From: Pseudomonadota bacterium
GTDB lineage: Bacteria > Pseudomonadota > Gammaproteobacteria > Steroidobacterales > Woeseiaceae
NCBI GenBank assembly: GCA_027621915.1
Contig: JAQCAD010000015.1
Coordinates: 1-64,000, forward strand
DNA: 64,000 bases
Direction: 5' to 3'
Both the position numbers and the translations under genes were made by a program. The notes beneath the pieces are model-generated. The model was given only the letters and a program-made list of their open reading frames with translations, searched no databases and was not told where the DNA came from. Below are positions 8,714 through 48,299 of the stretch, piece by piece. Each line of letters opens with the position of its first letter. The stretch's first letter is position 1.

Positions 8714-9806
8714 ACTTCTGGTAACCGGTGGCGCGGGATTTATCGGTGCCAATTTCGTTCGATACTGGGCCGGCAAATATCCCGATGACCAGATCGTCGT
8801 GCTGGATGCGCTGACGTATGCGGGCAATATGGCGAATCTGCAGGGCCTGGACGAATTTGCTGGATTCGAGTTTGTGCATGGCGACATTGCAGATCAGAAA
8901 CTCGTTACTTCGCTGTTGGTCGATCAAAAGCTCGATACGATTGTGCATTTCGCGGCAGAGTCACACGTGGACCGTTCCATCCACGAGCCCGACGCATTCA
9001 TCAGGACGAACGTAAACGGAACTCACAATTTGCTGCGAGTGGCCCGTGAGGTGTGGCTGAATAGGGACGATGCGCCGCCTTCACATCTATTTCACCATGT
9101 GTCGACCGATGAAGTGTATGGCACTTTGGGTCCGGATGATCCTGCTTTCACCGAAAAAACACCGTACGCACCAAACTCACCCTATGCCGCGAGTAAGGCC
9201 GCGTCAGATCACCTGGTTCGCTCGTATCACCATACTTTCGGTTTGCGCGTAACGACCAGTAACTGCTCGAACAATTACGGTCCATATCAGTTTCCTGAAA
9301 AGTTAATTCCGTTAATGATTGTCAATGCATTGACCGGAAAGACATTGCCGGTTTACGGCGATGGATCAAATATTCGGGATTGGTTGTACGTCGAGGATCA
9401 TTGCAGAGGCATAGACCTTGTCATCAGTCGGGGGAAAGCAGGCGAGACTTACAATTTGGGCGGCAATAACGAGCATGCGAATATCGATATTGTCAGGGAG
9501 ATTTGTGCGCGAACAGACACATTGTTTGCCGAACGACCGGAGCTTGCTGTGGCATTCCCTGACGCACCTGCGGCAACCGGCAAACCGACGGAGTCACTCG
9601 TTTCGTTTGTCAAGGATCGCCTGGGCCACGACTGGCGGTATGCAATCGACGCGACGAAGTCGACAAACGAGTTAGGCTATTTACCGACGGAAGATTTTGA
9701 TTCAGGACTCGGTCAGACAATCGACTGGATGCTGTCCAATGAGGCGTGGTGGCGCGCTGTGATGGATGGCAGTTACCGGGCATGGCTCGAAAGGAACTAT
9801 GCCTGA
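8706..9806 (+). CDS. rmlB: dTDP-glucose 4,6-dehydratase
   Basis: RmlB (RfbB) converts dTDP-glucose to dTDP-4-keto-6-deoxyglucose with bound NAD. It has 366 residues. GGAGFIGANFVR binds NAD, STDEVYG carries the catalytic Asp-Glu pair, and YAASKA is the YxxxK motif; NNYGPYQFPEKLIP is also typical. The ATG at 8706 gives the standard N-terminus with GGAAG just upstream; an ATG at 8694 would add four residues. It overlaps the last 8 bases of rmlC. Its 3' end overlaps the convergent GT2 gene by 10 bases. The gene order A-C-B lacks a separate rmlD. Confidence 0.96.
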   Translation: MRRLLVTGGAGFIGANFVRYWAGKYPDDQIVVLDALTYAGNMANLQGLDEFAGFEFVHGDIADQKLVTSLLVDQKLDTIVHFAAESHVDRSIHEPDAFIRTNVNGTHNLLRVAREVWLNRDDAPPSHLFHHVSTDEVYGTLGPDDPAFTEKTPYAPNSPYAASKAASDHLVRSYHHTFGLRVTTSNCSNNYGPYQFPEKLIPLMIVNALTGKTLPVYGDGSNIRDWLYVEDHCRGIDLVISRGKAGETYNLGGNNEHANIDIVREICARTDTLFAERPELAVAFPDAPAATGKPTESLVSFVKDRLGHDWRYAIDATKSTNELGYLPTEDFDSGLGQTIDWMLSNEAWWRAVMDGSYRAWLERNYA

Positions 9807-10765
9807 TTGGCTTGCGCTCGCGGACTGATCCAGCTGCCGCTCCGGAGCGCTCCGATGTAGTAGCCCAGCAGCCCCTTGAGCATCCTGCTTCGTACCCGCA
9901 ACGCCGGTATCTGGCGCAGACTGATCAAGTCCAGAAAAGCAGCCAGGATAAGGCCCGGCACCCTGACAAGTATGATCAGGCCATGCGTTAACCACCGCTT
10001 CAGCCCCCTGGTGTGCTTCGAGGTGTAGACGTGCTTCGATATGATCACTTCGAGCTTGGTCATAGACTTGACCTGCACATTGATCCGACTTGAGCCGCCA
10101 TGAGCGTGGACGACCTGCACCTTCGGCGTGTAGGCGACCCGCAGCCCTGCCTGGTGTGCGCGACGACACAGATCCGCGTCCTCAACGTACATCCAGTAAT
10201 CCGGTGACCAACCGCCAATTGCGTCGTAGTCGCTTCTGTCAATCAACAGGAAGGACCCGGTGACCCAATCGCAGTAAACCAGCTCGCGATGGTCTGCCCG
10301 GGGGTCAGTAGAGCGCGATGGTGCGACTACGCGAAGGAGTGCCTTCAAAGTCTTGCTTTGATTTAACAGGTTGGGGAACTCGTCAAACACTTTCTGTGGT
10401 CGACCGTCTGTGCCCACCTGCTTTGGCGACAATAGCGCGACGTCCGGATAGGCTGATTTTTCGGCCATTAGCGCCTGTATTTCATCAACTGTAGCCACGA
10501 CATCCGGGTTCATGAACAGGAGCCGCTTTCCCTGTGCCTCAGCGGCTCCTATGCGGCAGCCGAAACCGAAGCCGGTGTTGGCCGAACTTGCGATGAGTTT
10601 GACCCAAGCGTATCGGCTCTGAAACTCCTGGAAAGTGACCGGGTCAGATTCGTTGTCGACGACGATGATTTCCCAGTCAGCCGGGAATCCGGGATGAATA
10701 GCGTCGAGAGCGGACTGCAGGTGCCCCCATGCCTTGTAGTTAACGATGATAATCGACAATTTCAT
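9797..10765 (-). CDS. Glycosyltransferase family 2, rhamnosyltransferase-like
   Basis: A 322-residue inverting GT-A glycosyltransferase. The N-terminus is SIIIVNYKAW, then VVDNESDP, SSANTGFGFG and the metal-binding-type FMNPDV. The acceptor side has WVTGSFLLIDRSDYDAIGG and YVEDADLCRRAHQAG, which is typical of dTDP-rhamnosyltransferases (WbbL type). A basic C-terminus with a hydrophobic segment (LIILVRVPGLILAAFLDLI) suggests membrane association. Its ATG overlaps the upstream permease stop by 4 bases. The rml genes next to it suggest a dTDP-deoxyhexose donor; this is inference. Confidence 0.88.
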   Translation of the reverse strand: MKLSIIIVNYKAWGHLQSALDAIHPGFPADWEIIVVDNESDPVTFQEFQSRYAWVKLIASSANTGFGFGCRIGAAEAQGKRLLFMNPDVVATVDEIQALMAEKSAYPDVALLSPKQVGTDGRPQKVFDEFPNLLNQSKTLKALLRVVAPSRSTDPRADHRELVYCDWVTGSFLLIDRSDYDAIGGWSPDYWMYVEDADLCRRAHQAGLRVAYTPKVQVVHAHGGSSRINVQVKSMTKLEVIISKHVYTSKHTRGLKRWLTHGLIILVRVPGLILAAFLDLISLRQIPALRVRSRMLKGLLGYYIGALRSGSWISPRAQANQA

Positions 10766-12084
10766 GAGGCAGAGCGCGACGAACTTTTGACATGGGACAG
10801 GAAGTAGACGATAAGGCCGGAACCGATGACGCCTAGGCCGAACAGGCCCTCAACTGGTTTGTTCATCAATACGAACCACAGCGTCCAACCGGTCAGCGAC
10901 AGATAGACGAGCGGCGGGACCGGGTAGAGAAAAGTGCGGTAAGGCCGAGGCAGGTCTGGCTGCTTTCTTCTCAGAACAAATACACCGGCTACGGTCGCGA
11001 AGCTATTGAGTGCGAGCGTAAAACCGGCGAAAACAAGAATTGATTCGAAACTTGAGCTGAGTACGAAACCGATGGCGAGCGCCGACTGAATATGGATTGC
11101 TCGGCTCGGAATCCCGTCTTTGTTTCTTTTCGCAAGAAAACCAAGTGCCTTGAAGTCTTCGCCGATAACCTGCAGAACACGTGGACCGGCGATTGTCATT
11201 GCGCTGACCGTCGACACCAGCAGCGATGCAAGTACGATTCCGGTGAATTGGCCACCTAGCTCGCCGAACGCCGCCTGAGCGGCGATGAATCCGACTTCCA
11301 GCTCTCCCTTTAGTGCATCCACCGATGCTGTGTAGAGAAAGACGAAATTGAGGGATACGTACAGGATCGTGACGACCAGGGTGCCGGTCAAGAGGATGCC
11401 AGGAAGAGTTCGTTGCGGATTCTCGAGTTCGCTACTGAGGTAAGTTGCGGCATTCCACCCTGTGTAGGCGTAGCTCACGTAAATCAACGAAACCGCGAAT
11501 GCGCTGCTTGTTAACAAGGCGCCATCACCGCGAGCCGGGAGAAATTGAATCGGCTGAGGCGTATCAATCGCGAAGATCGCAGCGAGACAAAATCCGACGA
11601 TCACGCCAACTTTAAGGATCGTGAACACAACTTGCAGTCCACCCGAATTGCGTCTGCTGCTACTGTGAATAATTGTCAATCCGACGATCAATCCAACCGC
11701 CAGTACTTTCTGGACCCATTCCGGCGAAGTTGTTGGAAAGATCGTCGTTGCGTATGCCGCGAACGTTATGGCGGCTAATGCGGTCGGGCCGGCGAAGCCG
11801 ATGGTCGCCGAGGTCCAGCCTGAAACAAAGCCGGCCGCCGGATGATAAATCCGTGCCAGGAAATTGTACTCGCCGCCGGAGCGGGGTATTGCTGCACCGA
11901 GTTCCGCGTAAGTCATCGCGCCACAAACGGCGATCAGACCGCCGATCGCCCACAGCATCAGAATGACGAATCCGGATTGTATGTCGAGCAGTTGGAATCC
12001 CAGGCTGGTAAAGACACCGGTGCCAACCATGTTGGCGATTACCACGGCCGTGACCGTCGTGAATTTGAATTTAGTCGAGGACAT
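10762..12084 (-). CDS. APC-superfamily amino acid permease
   Basis: A 440-residue inner-membrane transporter with about twelve hydrophobic segments. The first helix carries ANMVGTGVFTSLG, the unwound substrate-binding glycine motif of the APC fold. GAMTYAELGAAIPRSGGEYNFL and GWTSATIGFAGPTALAA are also typical of amino acid/polyamine exchangers. It is translationally coupled to the downstream GT2 gene (4-base overlap), an odd partner. It lies 222 bases downstream of the amino-acid-metabolism operon and may serve it. Substrate unknown. Confidence 0.88.
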   Translation of the reverse strand: MSSTKFKFTTVTAVVIANMVGTGVFTSLGFQLLDIQSGFVILMLWAIGGLIAVCGAMTYAELGAAIPRSGGEYNFLARIYHPAAGFVSGWTSATIGFAGPTALAAITFAAYATTIFPTTSPEWVQKVLAVGLIVGLTIIHSSSRRNSGGLQVVFTILKVGVIVGFCLAAIFAIDTPQPIQFLPARGDGALLTSSAFAVSLIYVSYAYTGWNAATYLSSELENPQRTLPGILLTGTLVVTILYVSLNFVFLYTASVDALKGELEVGFIAAQAAFGELGGQFTGIVLASLLVSTVSAMTIAGPRVLQVIGEDFKALGFLAKRNKDGIPSRAIHIQSALAIGFVLSSSFESILVFAGFTLALNSFATVAGVFVLRRKQPDLPRPYRTFLYPVPPLVYLSLTGWTLWFVLMNKPVEGLFGLGVIGSGLIVYFLSHVKSSSRSAS

Positions 12085-12306: not shown

Positions 12307-13608
12307 TCACCGGCGTGACGGGCTGGGGCGGATAAGGAGTTGGTCATGCCCGGGTTGCCGGACAGATATTGCCGTCCCGATTGCACGCTGCAACGCGTCG
12401 ATATTCACAGTCGGATTGGCCGCTACGTGTCGGACCCAGCCTAGGTCGCCGATCGTCGTGGTCGACGCCGAACCTTCGGGCAGTCGGTCGATCAGGTCCC
12501 GTACGTCGGTATTGTCTTTGGTACGCCACAAAATCACGCCGCTGGCATTAGGTCCGTACAGTCGTACATTCGCCTGTTTGTCGAGATAATCGAACAGCAT
12601 CTGGGCCGACTCCATCGCGCCGTTGATACGCATCTCCAGGCCGGCCCGGCCCCAGGAAAGCAAAGTGGCAAACAGCGGAACCGCGTTCGCGCTGCGCGAT
12701 CCCATTACGCCAATGTTGGGTGACGCGAGATAAGCGCCCCCGAAACTTACCGCCCTGTGAGCGGCGGCGGAATCCCGAAACAGTACCAAACCGGATTCCT
12801 TGGGCTGGAAAAACCATTTATGAGCGGACATGGCAATCGAGTCCGCTGTATCAATTCCGTTGAGCCTGCCGCGGTGTTTGCTGGACAGTCGTAACGGGCC
12901 TGCCCAGGCCGCATCCACATGCTTCCACGCTGCGTTGCCTGTCAGCGTCAGGTCGTCCAATGCACCGGCACTCGTCGTACCTGCCGTGAGCACAATGGCT
13001 GAATCTGAAAGGTCAGCGGGAAGCTGCTCACGGTCGATCTGACCGAACCCCGTTGTATCGACAGCGAGGTAATCAAGTCCGAGTATGTGGGCGGACTTCG
13101 CAACGGACAGATGCGAAGCGGTCGACGAAACCACGCGCCTGATTCCCTTGATTTCCCTGGCGGCCCAAAGCGCAGTCAGGTTCGCGACTGTCGAACCCGG
13201 CGTCATATGTCCGCCGTTCATGCCGAAGCAGGGAGCGAGCCAGCGGACAACCAGGTCTTCGATGTCGCGCGCCGCTGGCGCGACGTCGGGATGAAGCAGA
13301 TTCTGATTTAACGCCGCATTCCAAAGAGACGTTGCCCAGGTCACCCAGGGCGTGGGTGGATCCATATGTGCGAACGCCGTTTCGGCGTTTAATCGCCGTG
13401 CGTGACCGATCACCAGCGGCGCCAGCAATTCGAGGGCTTTAATTTCGCCAATGCCCTCCTCAGGGAGTATTGCCGAAAACTCCGGCCTGGCAGATTCGAG
13501 AGATGGTTGAAGAATCGCATCAAGCGCTTTGTGCAACGCCTCTCGATCAGGGTCAAATGACGTATCGATCCTAACGCTCCAGTGCGAATTCGTCTGCGTC
13601 TTTATCAA
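12307..13608 (-). CDS. Group II PLP-dependent amino acid decarboxylase
   Basis: A pyridoxal-phosphate enzyme of the glutamate/DOPA/diaminobutyrate decarboxylase fold, about 410-433 residues. HMTPGSTVANLTALWAARE holds phosphate-binding residues, HVDAAWAGP contains the cofactor-ring Asp, and SAHKWFFQP has the Schiff-base Lys. The start is uncertain. The frame opens far into the upstream amidase gene, but no ATG lies near the junction. TTG codons at 13608 (overlapping the amidase by 38 bases) or 13536 are the candidates. It is the last gene of a four-gene operon for glutamate-family metabolism, so an acidic amino acid substrate is plausible but unproven. Confidence 0.8.
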   Translation of the reverse strand: MIKTQTNSHWSVRIDTSFDPDREALHKALDAILQPSLESARPEFSAILPEEGIGEIKALELLAPLVIGHARRLNAETAFAHMDPPTPWVTWATSLWNAALNQNLLHPDVAPAARDIEDLVVRWLAPCFGMNGGHMTPGSTVANLTALWAAREIKGIRRVVSSTASHLSVAKSAHILGLDYLAVDTTGFGQIDREQLPADLSDSAIVLTAGTTSAGALDDLTLTGNAAWKHVDAAWAGPLRLSSKHRGRLNGIDTADSIAMSAHKWFFQPKESGLVLFRDSAAAHRAVSFGGAYLASPNIGVMGSRSANAVPLFATLLSWGRAGLEMRINGAMESAQMLFDYLDKQANVRLYGPNASGVILWRTKDNTDVRDLIDRLPEGSASTTTIGDLGWVRHVAANPTVNIDALQRAIGTAISVRQPGHDQLLIRPSPSRR

Positions 13609-14347
13609 ACGGGAACTTATCTCGAAAATTTCTGAGCGTCGCGAGGTCAAGCGTTGCTGTTCCAGTGCCTTCCTGATCTCCCAGATCGACGAGGTCATTT
13701 CCAAGGTAGTCGATGATGGCACTTCCGCCGATATACGGCAGATCGTTGCCATCCAGTCCCACGCGGTTTACGCCGGCCAGGTAACTCAAATTTTCGATCG
13801 CGCGCGCCCGTAGCAGGGTGGCCCAGGCGTTGTGCCGGCGGCTGGGCCAGTTCGCGACATACAGCAGCAGGTCGTAATCGCCGCGGTTTCGGCTCCAGAC
13901 CGGAAATCGGAGGTCGTAGCAAATCATCGGGCGAATTCGAAAACCCTTGATCTCGAACGTTCGCAGGATATTGCCAGGGGCATAGTGACTGTGTTCGTCA
14001 GCAAGACGAAAAAGGTGGCGCTTATCGTACGTGGCTGCGGAGCCATCGGGCATCACGCAGATAAATCGATTGAAGTATGAATTGCCATCGACAACTATCA
14101 CGCTGCCGCATACAGCGGCCCCATGGGTGGCTGCGATTTGTTTCATCCACACGACTGTATCGCCGTCCATGGGTTCTGCGAGTCCTGGCGCGTCCATCGA
14201 AAAACCGGTCGTAAACATCTCGGGCAAGACGATGAGGTCTGTCTGTTCCCTGATGTTCTGGATCGCCAGGCTGAACATTTCACGGTTTCGTCGGGCGTCG
14301 TGCCAGTGGAGATTTGACTGCACGATAGATACTTTCAAAGTTGGCAT
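13571..14347 (-). CDS. yafV: Omega-amidase, YafV/Nit2-type carbon-nitrogen hydrolase
   Basis: A 258-residue cytoplasmic nitrilase-superfamily amidase. The catalytic triad is visible: Glu in VLPEMFTTGFSM, Lys in YDKRHLF and Cys in MICYDLRFPVWSRN. These flanking residues are the ones seen in YafV/Nit2 omega-amidases, which hydrolyse 2-oxoglutaramate or 2-oxosuccinamate. It overlaps the aminotransferase gene upstream by 13 bases, the classic glutamine-transaminase plus omega-amidase pairing. Together these convert glutamine to 2-oxoglutarate while re-aminating keto acids such as the methionine keto acid. Confidence 0.9.
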   Translation of the reverse strand: MPTLKVSIVQSNLHWHDARRNREMFSLAIQNIREQTDLIVLPEMFTTGFSMDAPGLAEPMDGDTVVWMKQIAATHGAAVCGSVIVVDGNSYFNRFICVMPDGSAATYDKRHLFRLADEHSHYAPGNILRTFEIKGFRIRPMICYDLRFPVWSRNRGDYDLLLYVANWPSRRHNAWATLLRARAIENLSYLAGVNRVGLDGNDLPYIGGSAIIDYLGNDLVDLGDQEGTGTATLDLATLRNFRDKFPFDKDADEFALER

Positions 14348-15501
14348 AGTCTTCCTGCCGCTTCCACGAGCATGTCGTCATCTTTGGCAAAGCAGAATCT
14401 CAATTTTCGACTGGCGGGTGTCTGTTCGCAAAAAACAGAAATAGGAATTGATGCCACCCCGATTTCCCGCGTTAATCTTTTCGCGTAAGAGACATCATCT
14501 TCATCTGTGATATTCGAATAATCCAATATTTGGAAAAAAGTACCATTGGCCGGGCGAAATCGAAATCGAGACTCACTGACAAGTGCGCAAAAACGATCTC
14601 GTTTCTCCTCGTAAAATGCCGGCAATGCCGCGTAATGATCGGGTGTCCGCGCCATGTAATCTCCAAGTGCATGTTGAATTGGTGAAACTACGGCGTAGCA
14701 AACCCATTGATGTATCTTGCGAAACTCATTGCTTAGTGCGGGCGGGGCGACGCAATAGCCAACTTTCCAGCCGGTTGCGTGATAAGTCTTGCCGAATGAC
14801 GAGATGACGAATGATCGCTGCCACAACTCGTCGTGCCTTATAAAGCTCTGGTGCGCGGCTCCATCGAAAACAATATGCTCATAAACCTCGTCAGAGAGCA
14901 GGTAGACTTTCGTGTCACGTACGATATCGGCAAGCACGTCCAGGTCGGCGGCACTGAGGATGACCCCGGTCGGATTGTGCGGAAAGTTCAGAATGATGAG
15001 TCGCGTCTTTTCATTTATCGAATCTTTCAGACGTTCCCAGTCGATATGAAAGTCCGGTTTTTCCGTAGTTACAATCAACGGGATATGTACGGTTTTACCA
15101 CCAGCCAGCGTGACTGACGGTTCATAGGAGTCATACGCAGGATCAAAAACGATTACCTCATCGCCGGGGTGAACAATTGCCTGAATGGCACTGAACAACC
15201 CCTCCGTTGCACCGTCGCAAACGGTGACTTCACGGTCCGGATCGACGCTACGACCATAGAGCATTGATACTTTTTCGGCGATTGACTGGCGAAGTGCCGG
15301 TACGCCAAGCATCGGCGCGTACTGATTGCCATTATTGTTCAGGTAATGGGTAACCAGGTCGAGGAGGGCCTGATCCGGGTTAAAGCTTGGGAAGCCCTGC
15401 GACAGGTTAATTGCTTTGTGTTCGATCGCCAGCGCACTCATCACTGCGAATATCGTGGTGCCGGAGTCCGGCAGCTTTGTGTCCATTGGAGCTTCGCTCA
15501 A
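14335..15501 (-). CDS. ybdL: Methionine/glutamine aminotransferase, YbdL-like
   Basis: A 388-residue class I/II PLP aminotransferase. NLSQGFPSF near the N-terminus, VTVCDGATEGLFSAI, NFPHNPTG, LLSDEVYEHIVFDG and SSFGKTYHATGWKVGY (with the Schiff-base Lys) are the family hallmarks. The YbdL group uses methionine and aromatic amino acids with glutamine-type donors. It starts 3 bases after the stop of the aldehyde dehydrogenase gene and overlaps the omega-amidase, so all three are one transcript. A second ATG five codons in is an alternative start. Confidence 0.9.
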   Translation of the reverse strand: MSEAPMDTKLPDSGTTIFAVMSALAIEHKAINLSQGFPSFNPDQALLDLVTHYLNNNGNQYAPMLGVPALRQSIAEKVSMLYGRSVDPDREVTVCDGATEGLFSAIQAIVHPGDEVIVFDPAYDSYEPSVTLAGGKTVHIPLIVTTEKPDFHIDWERLKDSINEKTRLIILNFPHNPTGVILSAADLDVLADIVRDTKVYLLSDEVYEHIVFDGAAHQSFIRHDELWQRSFVISSFGKTYHATGWKVGYCVAPPALSNEFRKIHQWVCYAVVSPIQHALGDYMARTPDHYAALPAFYEEKRDRFCALVSESRFRFRPANGTFFQILDYSNITDEDDVSYAKRLTREIGVASIPISVFCEQTPASRKLRFCFAKDDDMLVEAAGRLCQL

Positions 15502-15504
15502 CGT

Positions 15505-17088
15505 CTAGCTGACTGGCGGAATTTCCCATCCGCCTGGTATCGAACTCTGATCCATGATGACCTCACGATGGTGGCTCCACGTGACGTGAATGGCCTCGGT
15601 GGTACCAATGCCGGCACCTCGAGGGTCACCACCTGGCCCAAACCAGTGATTCTGTGGCGCGCCTGTCGTTCTTGCCCTGATGCCACAATAAGTCGTCCCA
15701 TTGACAGTGGCACCGAGCACCGCATTCTGAAAATCAACATCCTTGCTGACCACCGCTGCGGTCAGATGGTGGGACATTCTTTCCAGCACATCCAGCACCT
15801 TCGGCAGATCCCCGTCTCCCCATGTGACGATGACCTGGAACGGACCAAACAACTCAGTGGTAATCAGCTCGAAGTACCTGCCCGCGACCGCATCGATGGA
15901 AACCTTGACGGCGGTGGGCTCCATCGCCCCGTAACACGCCGGAATCGAATGGTTTTTCAAAGGCTTACCACCGAAAAGCAGTTCGGCGCCTGGTACGGCC
16001 AGCATCGCGTCGATGTGTGCCTTCATCTGGTCATTCGTCCACGTGAGTACGGGGCCGAGCGACAGATCGTTCAGGTTTCGACGGCCGGCGAGTTCGCCGA
16101 GTTTTGGTAACAACGCATCCGCCCAATTGTTGTGCACCATTACCATGCTTTGTGCTGAACATTTCTGCCCGGATGAATTGTATGCGTCTTCGTCGCATTG
16201 CCATGCGACGTAGTCGACCTGGTCGGGGTGGAAATCGGGTCCAATGACTTTCCAGTCGAACCCGGCATCTTCTATTCTGACCGCACCATTCATTATTTCG
16301 GACAATCGTTCTGCGACGCCACTGGATCCAGTGAATTGCACCAGTCGGATATGGTCGCGAGAGTCCTCGATCAGCCGCCCCATGTCTGTGCCCCTGCAAT
16401 GAATCATGTCGACGTCATTCGGATCCAGACCTGCGTGGATTAGCAATCGCACGAATTGCTCGAGAACGACGCTGACTTTGGTCTCGGGCTTGATCAGAGG
16501 CCGGTTGCCCATCGCCAGCGCGCCGACCAGTTGCAGGGCCGGAATTTCGAGGGGGAAGTTGAATGGGGCGATGATGACGACCGGACCGTACGGCCACCGG
16601 TAACCCCTCGATTCCTGACCGTCATGGTTCCCCGGATTCGAAAAACCACGGGCGAGGAAACGAACGCCATCACCGGCCAGGTTCTCAAGGAATACCCGGG
16701 TAACGACCGTCTCTCCAAGACTCTGATTCCAGCTTTTTGGCATAACTCGCTGGGTCAGTTTGGTAAAAAAATTTTCTACCTGTGGAGTTGCCAGGAGTGC
16801 CGCTGCACGTGCACAGACCTGCCCGAGGTACACATACCGACCCGGGTTTTTCAGCGGATTATGCAGTCCGGATTTCGGGCAACTCTTCAGGCCCTCGACA
16901 TAGGGCGAGAAATCGGTCGTGTGAGGTTCTTTGATGAATGCATCGCCATTCATGGGGTCAACGACGTCGTCATAACGTCCATCGCCGTTAACCCACTTGC
17001 CACCTACGAGGTTCTGCAGAATTCCTGGATTGGCTGCTGTCATGCCATCGAACGGGTCGACAGTCGCAAATTCGGGCACTCGGGACAT
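15505..17088 (-). CDS. Plant-type (ALDH12) 1-pyrroline-5-carboxylate dehydrogenase
   Basis: A 527-residue NAD-dependent aldehyde dehydrogenase closely resembling plant mitochondrial P5C dehydrogenase (ALDH12A1) over its whole length. Shared segments include GKWVNGDGRY, VDPMNGDAFIK, SGLHNPLKNPGRY, GYRWPYGPVVIIAPFNFPLE, SSGQKCSAQSM with the catalytic Cys, and TTGAPQNHWFGPGGDPRG. It would oxidise P5C/glutamate semialdehyde to glutamate. I chose the ATG at 17088 because AGGAGA lies six bases upstream; the open frame reaches 17352 into the 4.5S RNA. It heads the operon with aminotransferase, omega-amidase and decarboxylase. Most gammaproteobacteria use the unrelated PutA fusion for this step. Confidence 0.88.
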   Translation of the reverse strand: MSRVPEFATVDPFDGMTAANPGILQNLVGGKWVNGDGRYDDVVDPMNGDAFIKEPHTTDFSPYVEGLKSCPKSGLHNPLKNPGRYVYLGQVCARAAALLATPQVENFFTKLTQRVMPKSWNQSLGETVVTRVFLENLAGDGVRFLARGFSNPGNHDGQESRGYRWPYGPVVIIAPFNFPLEIPALQLVGALAMGNRPLIKPETKVSVVLEQFVRLLIHAGLDPNDVDMIHCRGTDMGRLIEDSRDHIRLVQFTGSSGVAERLSEIMNGAVRIEDAGFDWKVIGPDFHPDQVDYVAWQCDEDAYNSSGQKCSAQSMVMVHNNWADALLPKLGELAGRRNLNDLSLGPVLTWTNDQMKAHIDAMLAVPGAELLFGGKPLKNHSIPACYGAMEPTAVKVSIDAVAGRYFELITTELFGPFQVIVTWGDGDLPKVLDVLERMSHHLTAAVVSKDVDFQNAVLGATVNGTTYCGIRARTTGAPQNHWFGPGGDPRGAGIGTTEAIHVTWSHHREVIMDQSSIPGGWEIPPVS

Positions 17089-17239: not shown

Positions 17240-17345
17240 GGCCCGTGTCGGCTTCCTCGCGACGGCCACCCGTGAACCCCGTCAGGCCCGGAAGGGAGCA
17301 GCGGCAGCGGCGACGCCGGGTGCCGGGGAACAGCTGGCGCGGGCC
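17240..17345 (+). ncRNA. ffs: 4.5S signal recognition particle RNA (small bacterial type)
   Basis: The RNA partner of Ffh in co-translational membrane targeting. The universally conserved core is present: GTCAGGCCCGGAAGGGAGCA (17282-17301), with GGAA tetraloop and asymmetric internal loop, then GCCGGG and GGGGAACAGCTGGC. The ends GGCCCGTG and CGCGGGCC pair to close the long hairpin. Ends were set by that pairing, so they may be off by a few bases. It is followed directly by dnaX, as in many gammaproteobacteria. Confidence 0.95.
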
Positions 17346-47937: not shown

Positions 47938-48299
47938 TGGTGGAGGCGGCGGGGATCGAACCCGCGTCCGCAAGCCCTCCGCTACGGGGTCTACATGCTT
48001 ATTCCGTCTTTAATCTCATCGCAGGCTACCCGACGGGCAGGGAAGACCTGAAACCAGCCCAGTGATTTTTTAACGGTTCGGACCCTGAACACGCCCTTGC
48101 CGCGGTCTTGTGTATATGACTCCTGTGATCCGATCGCACAAGCACGAGCCGGGCAGAAGGCACTAAGTTGGTTTTTAAGCAGCTAGTGCGTAGTTGTCGT
48201 CGTTGGCAACTATAGGTTTTACAGCTGGTTTAACGAGGTCATCTGTCCCTCGGCATGCACCCGGAGTTTCGCGACCCACGTCGAATCCAATTCGCCCCC
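47938..48299 (-). ncRNA. ssrA: Transfer-messenger RNA
   Basis: tmRNA of about 362 nt for rescuing stalled ribosomes. The 5' end GGGGGCGAATTGGATTCGAC (from 48299) and the 3' end with the T-arm GGTTCGATCC and encoded CCA (47938) pair over seven bases with one G-U. The tag frame (48175-48207) encodes ANDDNYALAA and then stops. Open frames on both strands across it are artefacts. It lies one gene away from smpB, its protein partner. Confidence 0.95.

Follow-up and report, generated by a model that had tools for sequence, protein, structure and literature searches.

Genes at the locus

We analyzed a 64,000-nucleotide (nt) stretch of contig JAQCAD010000015.1, here called the window, from a bacterium of the Woeseiaceae, a family that is common in marine sediment. 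Four genes lie within positions 12307-17088, all on the minus strand, and encode an aldehyde dehydrogenase of the ALDH12 type, an aminotransferase, an omega-amidase, and a group II decarboxylase dependent on pyridoxal 5'-phosphate (PLP) (Table 1). A single gap of 3 to 18 nt and two overlaps of 13 and 38 nt separate or join them, confirming the compact arrangement described in an initial annotation of this DNA.

The width of the gap depends on the start of the aminotransferase. With TTG at 15501 as the start codon, 3 nt remain after the ALDH12 gene, and with ATG at 15486, 18 nt remain. For 8 of 12 relatives the match begins at this ATG (residue 6), and for 4 it begins at residue 1 or 2. The 13-nt overlap is that of the aminotransferase and amidase genes. 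The open reading frame (ORF) of the decarboxylase as listed begins at 13752, and its first 48 codons are the amidase gene read out of frame. Since the matches of two relatives (genomes G007 and G004) that reach into this upstream part run through stop codons, and since G007 has a matching TTG, the TTG at 13608 is most likely the decarboxylase start, which would give the 38-nt overlap with the amidase gene. The same decarboxylase/amidase arrangement is found in G007, with an overlap of 44 nt.

The operon extends past the decarboxylase, with 222 nt followed by an APC-superfamily permease gene (179 bits to TIGR00911, under the cut-off of 702) and then by a glycosyltransferase gene that overlaps it by 4 nt. 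A glycosyltransferase gene behind the permease was seen only within the genus, in the genome of the window (G000) and in G004, G005, G008, and G009. A scan for promoters and terminators returned background levels (4 found versus 4.5 expected; 9 found versus 7.8 expected).

Table 1. Features of the operon and its surroundings (positions in the window; aa, amino acids; SRP, signal recognition particle)
Feature	Position	Strand	Match
ALDH12-type L-glutamate-gamma-semialdehyde (P5C) dehydrogenase, 527 aa	15505..17088	-	6d97, 637 bits
YbdL-type (methionine/glutamine) aminotransferase, 388 aa (TTG 15501) or 383 aa (ATG 15486)	14335..15501	-	PRK09082, 578 bits
YafV-type omega-amidase (nitrilase superfamily), 258 aa	13571..14347	-	PRK10438, 285 bits
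Group II PLP-dependent decarboxylase, short (~405-430 aa) orphan subfamily, probable insertion in the operon	12307..13608	-	PF00282, 102 bits
APC-superfamily amino acid permease (LAT-like), conserved downstream operon member	10762..12084	-	PF13520, 164 bits
Family 2 glycosyltransferase	9797..10765	-	PF00535, 48 bits
Bacterial small SRP RNA, in the space that separates the operon from divergent dnaX	17246..17342	+	RF00169, 64.1 bits

Conserved gene order and probable insertion of the decarboxylase

The comparison covered 149 genomes, G000 included, and ALDH12 was present in 58 of them. Neighbors in all 58 ALDH12 regions were scored by tblastn with bit thresholds that we set ourselves, and the distances reported are the bounds of the BLAST matches. 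In G011, G015, and G058, the sequence stops at ALDH12, leaving 55 informative loci. An aminotransferase gene lies 0 to 59 nt downstream of ALDH12 in 19 of the 55, and an omega-amidase gene is next in 16 of these 19 (the sequence of G014 stops short of the amidase position). Seventeen of the 19 extend far enough to show the next position (G001 and G014 end earlier), and 15 of these have the APC permease downstream in the same orientation. Sixteen of the 19 have dnaX upstream at a distance of 224 to 470 nt, in divergent orientation. Because of these neighbor counts, the conserved set is ALDH12, aminotransferase, amidase, and permease. The initial annotation had thus named three of the conserved genes correctly, had missed the permease as the fourth, and had counted in a decarboxylase that is probably an insertion. 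It is gene order across genera, rather than tight spacing, that lifts the ALDH12 operon above chance.

The decarboxylase lies between the amidase and the permease in only two of the 149 genomes, G000 and G007. A search for the same four-gene order had been proposed along with the initial annotation, with uniqueness to this genome as the outcome that would count against a shared pathway; the result came close to this, since G007 has the order and no other genome among the 149 does. In eight genomes (G005, G006, G009, G013, G016, G020, G024, and G028), the amidase and permease genes are adjacent, with gaps of up to ~110 nt. A PPK2 gene in the opposite direction lies between them in G004 and G008, and G007 holds both the decarboxylase and a PPK2 gene (assigned by Pfam) at this position; PPK2 was not found at the junction in the window. 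These PPK2 polyphosphate kinase loci are L032:5018-5908, L171, and L174. The 67 nt just upstream of the window permease can be aligned to G007 at 78% identity. The amidase/permease junction looks insertion prone.

Orthologues of the decarboxylase with at least 47% identity occur in 7 of the 149 genomes (G000, G004, G005, G007, G011, G018, and G043). That of G043 (L037:9239-10352) is in two pieces, split across two frames, and is either a pseudogene or a sequence error. Other copies within the genus occupy other sites: those of G004 and G011 lie behind a mazG-like gene, in what we take from the sequences to be a fumarase-nudix-mazG-like row, and that of G005 lies behind an amidohydrolase gene. 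In a tree of 57 decarboxylase sequences, the five from the genus form one clade (support, 99/99), within which G000 pairs with G007 (100/95); the G018 sequence lies outside this clade. A single genus clade spread over differing sites indicates that the decarboxylase was present early in the genus and later changed place. Between G000 and G007 the decarboxylase has diverged faster than the proteins encoded beside it, with 63% identity versus 87, 84, and 71%.

Taken together, we consider it probable (about 0.7) that an older operon of ALDH12, aminotransferase, omega-amidase, and APC permease genes, opposite dnaX, exists in part of the family and that the decarboxylase was inserted into it in the common ancestor of G000 and G007. 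In these two genomes the decarboxylase is probably cotranscribed with the operon, and its translation may be coupled to that of the amidase. On the best reading, the operon does not need the decarboxylase, which is a separate gene that moved in. Tight spacing alone can therefore mislead, since the intruding gene is the most tightly overlapping neighbor in the set.

Several observations weigh against this reading. No amidase match was found between aminotransferase and permease in G025 and G029, no permease match was found in G017 and G026, and in G012 amidase and permease are separated by an 871-aa gene that runs in the opposite direction. ALDH12 stands without the operon neighbors in 36 of the 55 loci (28 in genus g11, 5 in family f13, and those of G019, G022, and G148), in which 584 to 8444 nt of downstream DNA were examined; ALDH12 is thus not bound to the aminotransferase/amidase pair. 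Within the genus, ALDH12 was not found in G002, G003, and G010, the completeness of which is 72 to 77%. The overlap with the amidase gene could also indicate that, in G000 and G007, the decarboxylase is genuinely coupled to the pathway.

Predicted functions of the conserved enzymes

The ALDH12 protein matched structure 6d97, an ALDH12 that we take to be from a plant or moss, over residues 4 to 525, and the next best structure reached 76 bits. The stretches SGQKCSAQS and EDAGFDWK align to 6d97 and are presumably those of the catalytic Cys and Glu of ALDH12. The protein stayed below the cut-off of each of the 25 NCBIfam models listed for it, and a search for ALDH12 in viral contigs gave no match. 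Family membership supports assignment to the glutamate-forming type, in agreement with the earlier proposal that ALDH12 supplies glutamate. In contrast to the presumed plant or moss enzyme, that of the window is bacterial and encoded in an operon, and the proline dehydrogenase gene of its own genome lies on another contig.

The aminotransferase exceeded the cut-off of 420 bits for the NCBIfam model of methionine aminotransferase (PRK09082), and its best match in the PDB was YbdL (1u08; 404 bits). The amidase exceeded the cut-off of 249 bits for PRK10438, the family that we take to bear the gene name YafV. In its alignment to PDB entry 2e11 (264 bits), the amidase keeps the Glu of LPEMF, the Lys of DKRHLF, and the Cys of CYDLRFP, which presumably make up the Glu-Lys-Cys triad. 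By family membership, the two proteins are the known glutamine transaminase/omega-amidase pair, as the initial annotation had recognized. The same two enzyme families make up the glutamine transaminase-omega-amidase (glutaminase II) system and the MtnE-omega-amidase pair of methionine salvage. Here their genes adjoin and overlap and, unlike in the glutamine transaminase-omega-amidase systems, share an operon with ALDH12 and APC permease genes. A passage of PMC6302742 describes omega-amidase as a ratchet, in which the hydrolysis of 2-oxoglutaramate renders transamination irreversible.

We infer how the operon works, substrates included, from family membership, and this basis is itself a point against the reading. 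The permease would transport an amino acid, and the aminotransferase would transfer the amino group of glutamine (or methionine) to a 2-oxo acid. The omega-amidase would then convert 2-oxoglutaramate to 2-oxoglutarate and ammonia, pulling transamination forward, while ALDH12 would oxidize glutamate semialdehyde, supplied by proline, ornithine, or arginine, and so form glutamate. The net reaction of the old operon would be glutamine plus glutamate semialdehyde to 2-oxoglutarate plus glutamate. The decarboxylase would be a functional stand-alone alpha-decarboxylase. Searches of the open-licence literature found no paper naming YafV and YbdL together, none combining omega-amidase, aldehyde dehydrogenase, operon, and decarboxylase, and none with ALDH12, P5C dehydrogenase, and bacteria.

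A less likely alternative, though the strongest of those considered, is that the aminotransferase/amidase pair serves methionine salvage in the manner of MtnE/MtnU and that ALDH12 and the permease are joined to it for shared regulation only. The aminotransferase does belong to the methionine aminotransferase family, and, among 13 genomes searched, acireductone dioxygenase was clearly above its cut-off in G000, G001, G003, G007, and G008. In addition, omega-amidase genes are noted in a passage of PMC6302742 to occur often inside methionine-salvage operons. However, none of the genes recognized in the operon belongs to the salvage ring, and among the genomes that carry the ALDH12-aminotransferase-amidase trio, G005 had no dioxygenase match, the G004 match was below the cut-off, and that of G006 was partial and marginal (27.5 versus 27 bits).

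Proline breakdown in the genus

The conversion of proline to glutamate, presumably the same overall step, is also carried out by PutA, a bifunctional proline dehydrogenase/P5C dehydrogenase. A PutA-type P5C dehydrogenase domain (TIGR01238) was found in 1 of 12 genomes of the genus, and not in the other 11; in a sample of 11 genomes from the family's other genera, 10 had it. Unlike PutA, the P5C dehydrogenase of the window is a separate protein of a distant type. A short proline dehydrogenase was found in 6 of the 12 genus genomes (frames of 215 to 316 aa, that of G000 being cut near a contig end). Because the aldehyde dehydrogenase encoded beside this gene in G000 is HpaE (822 bits), ALDH12 is the most plausible enzyme to oxidize P5C in the genus, where it may replace PutA as the P5C dehydrogenase. 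The operon links a plant-type P5C dehydrogenase with a glutamine transaminase/omega-amidase pair in a bacterial family, which suggests a possible PutA-free route for a lineage.

The case for replacement is incomplete. Proline dehydrogenase was not found in 5 of the 12 genus genomes (G001, G002, G005, G008, and G010), although ALDH12 is present in G001, G005, and G008. Other genera of the family hold ALDH12 and PutA together; with the 36 neighbor-less loci, this indicates that ALDH12 is neither bound to the pair nor always a substitute for PutA. Other P5C dehydrogenases are also possible. Ten dehydrogenases of G000 match TIGR01237 at E values of 1e-80 or less, the best at 357 bits against a cut-off of 660; in all 13 genomes searched, TIGR01237 drew unspecific dehydrogenases that stayed below its cut-off, and no search with TIGR01236 was made.

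On contig C80 of G000, the HpaB oxygenase is encoded in two adjacent frames (L230:1863-3326; HpaB-1 model positions 2-263 and 275-474). HpaB of G007 is a single frame of 491 aa, and the split in G000 is either a broken gene or a sequence error.

An orphan subfamily of group II decarboxylases

The decarboxylase is well above the PF00282 cut-off of 27 bits and exceeds no NCBIfam cut-off: the leading models gave 110 to 117 bits against cut-offs of 606 to 900. The L-2,4-diaminobutyrate decarboxylase model (NF052646) scored 117 bits (cut-off, 900), followed by PanP (TIGR03799) with 110 bits (cut-off, 606). Histidine decarboxylase (PRK02769; 87 bits, cut-off 305) and MfnA (77 bits, cut-off 299) fell short as well. 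The AlphaFold model has a predicted local distance difference test score (pLDDT) of 82 and a predicted template modeling score (pTM) of 0.82, with residues 1-13, 291-295, and 297-299 under 50. It matched group II decarboxylases over nearly the whole length, namely, Sphaerobacter 4rj0 (Z score, 42.0), Ruminococcus tryptophan decarboxylase 4obv (Z score, 40.2), and the lysine decarboxylase DfoJ (Z score, 40.1). PDB entry 8zpi, deposited as the diaminobutyrate-2-oxoglutarate transaminase EctB, matches group II decarboxylases in sequence and fold (Z score, 38.9), and its name seems doubtful.

Residues K264, H166, D232, and Y293 were unchanged in all 57 rows of the alignment. Judged from the alignment to 4rit and to the Y333 entries, they would be the PLP lysine, the stacking histidine, the aspartate, and the loop tyrosine, respectively; Y293 aligns with the tyrosine altered in the Y333N and Y333Q structures and falls in a stretch of the model with a pLDDT of <50. 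The protein is therefore likely an active alpha-decarboxylase. It shares the fold and these residues with known group II decarboxylases, among them the Sphaerobacter (4rit/4rj0) and Ruminococcus (4obu) enzymes, L-2,4-diaminobutyrate decarboxylase, and PanP. It differs from them in identity (23 to 30%), in length (~405 versus 470 to 500 aa), in a loop after the tyrosine that is ~7 residues shorter in the alignment, and in an AHxDPPTPW stretch, the constancy of which is partly built into the scan described below.

The wider scan covered 84,980 species, with one genome each, for the peptide patterns [EA][TG]AFAHMD and PPTPW[IV]TW. It misses relatives that lack both patterns, so that the constancy of both stretches is partly built in. 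At least 136 relatives were found, and the best 80 of the 136 were retained as named loci. Among these 80, the relatives are patchy in the Pseudomonadota, with single or few records labeled Cyanobacteriota, Acidobacteriota, Campylobacterota, and SAR324; many of the records are metagenome bins, the taxon labels of which may be wrong. The 57 rows of the alignment and tree comprise the window, five relatives that duplicate L071 to L074 and L079, plus 51 sequences from the remaining 75 named loci, of which 24 were omitted.

Neighbors were clustered in 78 loci (the window and 77 named loci; 3 of 81 were dropped because no decarboxylase ORF was recovered), using up to six ORFs of at least 90 aa per side from our own gene caller. 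No neighbor family occurred in more than 7 of the 78 loci, so that the decarboxylase has no constant neighbor. Small groups included an ABC-transporter neighborhood in 4 to 6 loci and a group of 7, probably PaiB-like; of the 51 proteins scanned, which included two members of this group, 2 had a PF04299 match. These 51 were drawn from 64 close same-strand neighbors, the other 13 (the window amidase, ORFs that were short or looked antisense, and a few that were long frames or nearly duplicated others) being left out by eye, and no Pfam family had more than 6 members among them. A MocR-like regulator is encoded near the decarboxylase in 5 loci, one of them 33% identical and >3.9 kb away; that of L081, the only one scanned with Pfam, has GntR and aminotransferase domains. 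The regulator and the probably PaiB-like protein, encoded near the decarboxylase in several loci (L081, L108, L116, L128, and L143), are a possible clue to its ligand.

These features raise the tentative idea that the subfamily is a class of group II decarboxylases with a new specificity, ~405 aa long, with AHxDPPTPW and NQN stretches, which has no fixed partner, is patchily distributed, changes site, and was captured by overlap in two Woeseiaceae into an operon that replaces PutA. The partly scan-made constancy of the motifs and the less clean replacement of PutA make this idea less likely, and we put it well below the insertion itself. The decarboxylase should be approached as a separate orphan enzyme family, not as a component of the operon, and one enzyme assay could name the subfamily in many genomes (at least 136 loci).

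The initial annotation had instead suggested that the set may constitute an undescribed pathway for a glutamate-family compound. In a single pathway of this kind, the decarboxylase would act on an amino acid formed by the aminotransferase. The common strand, the overlap with the amidase gene, and its retention in G007 despite the divergence of the decarboxylase are consistent with such a pathway, as is the intact reading frame, with a ratio of nonsynonymous to synonymous substitution rates of ~0.13 for G000 versus G007 (synonymous changes being near saturation). Set against this are the two occurrences of the order among 149 genomes and the mazG-like and amidohydrolase sites of other genus copies. 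Moreover, among the 78 loci, ALDH12, the aminotransferase, and the amidase were found near the decarboxylase only in the window and in L071, the 1 case among the 77 named loci, which is the contig of G007 itself. On the gene order in the 149 genomes and 80 named loci, we dropped the single pathway as the principal explanation and regard it as improbable.

Equally improbable is that the decarboxylase substitutes for PanD in converting aspartate to beta-alanine: none of the 12 genus genomes has panD (PF02261), nor do 15 of the 21 genomes searched that bear the decarboxylase, and PanP is the second-best NCBIfam model, but 6 of the 21, plus G018, carry both genes, 7 of the 12 panD-less genus genomes lack the decarboxylase too, and the score is far under the PanP cut-off, so that a general role of this kind is unsupported.

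Other features of the window

At the left end of the window, an int-alpA RNA (RF02996; 55.8 bits) at 278-344 lies beside a 424-aa ORF at 362-1636 that looks like a tyrosine integrase, and an integrated element is likely at this end. A transfer-messenger RNA (RF00023; 227.6 bits) is encoded on the minus strand at 47938-48299.

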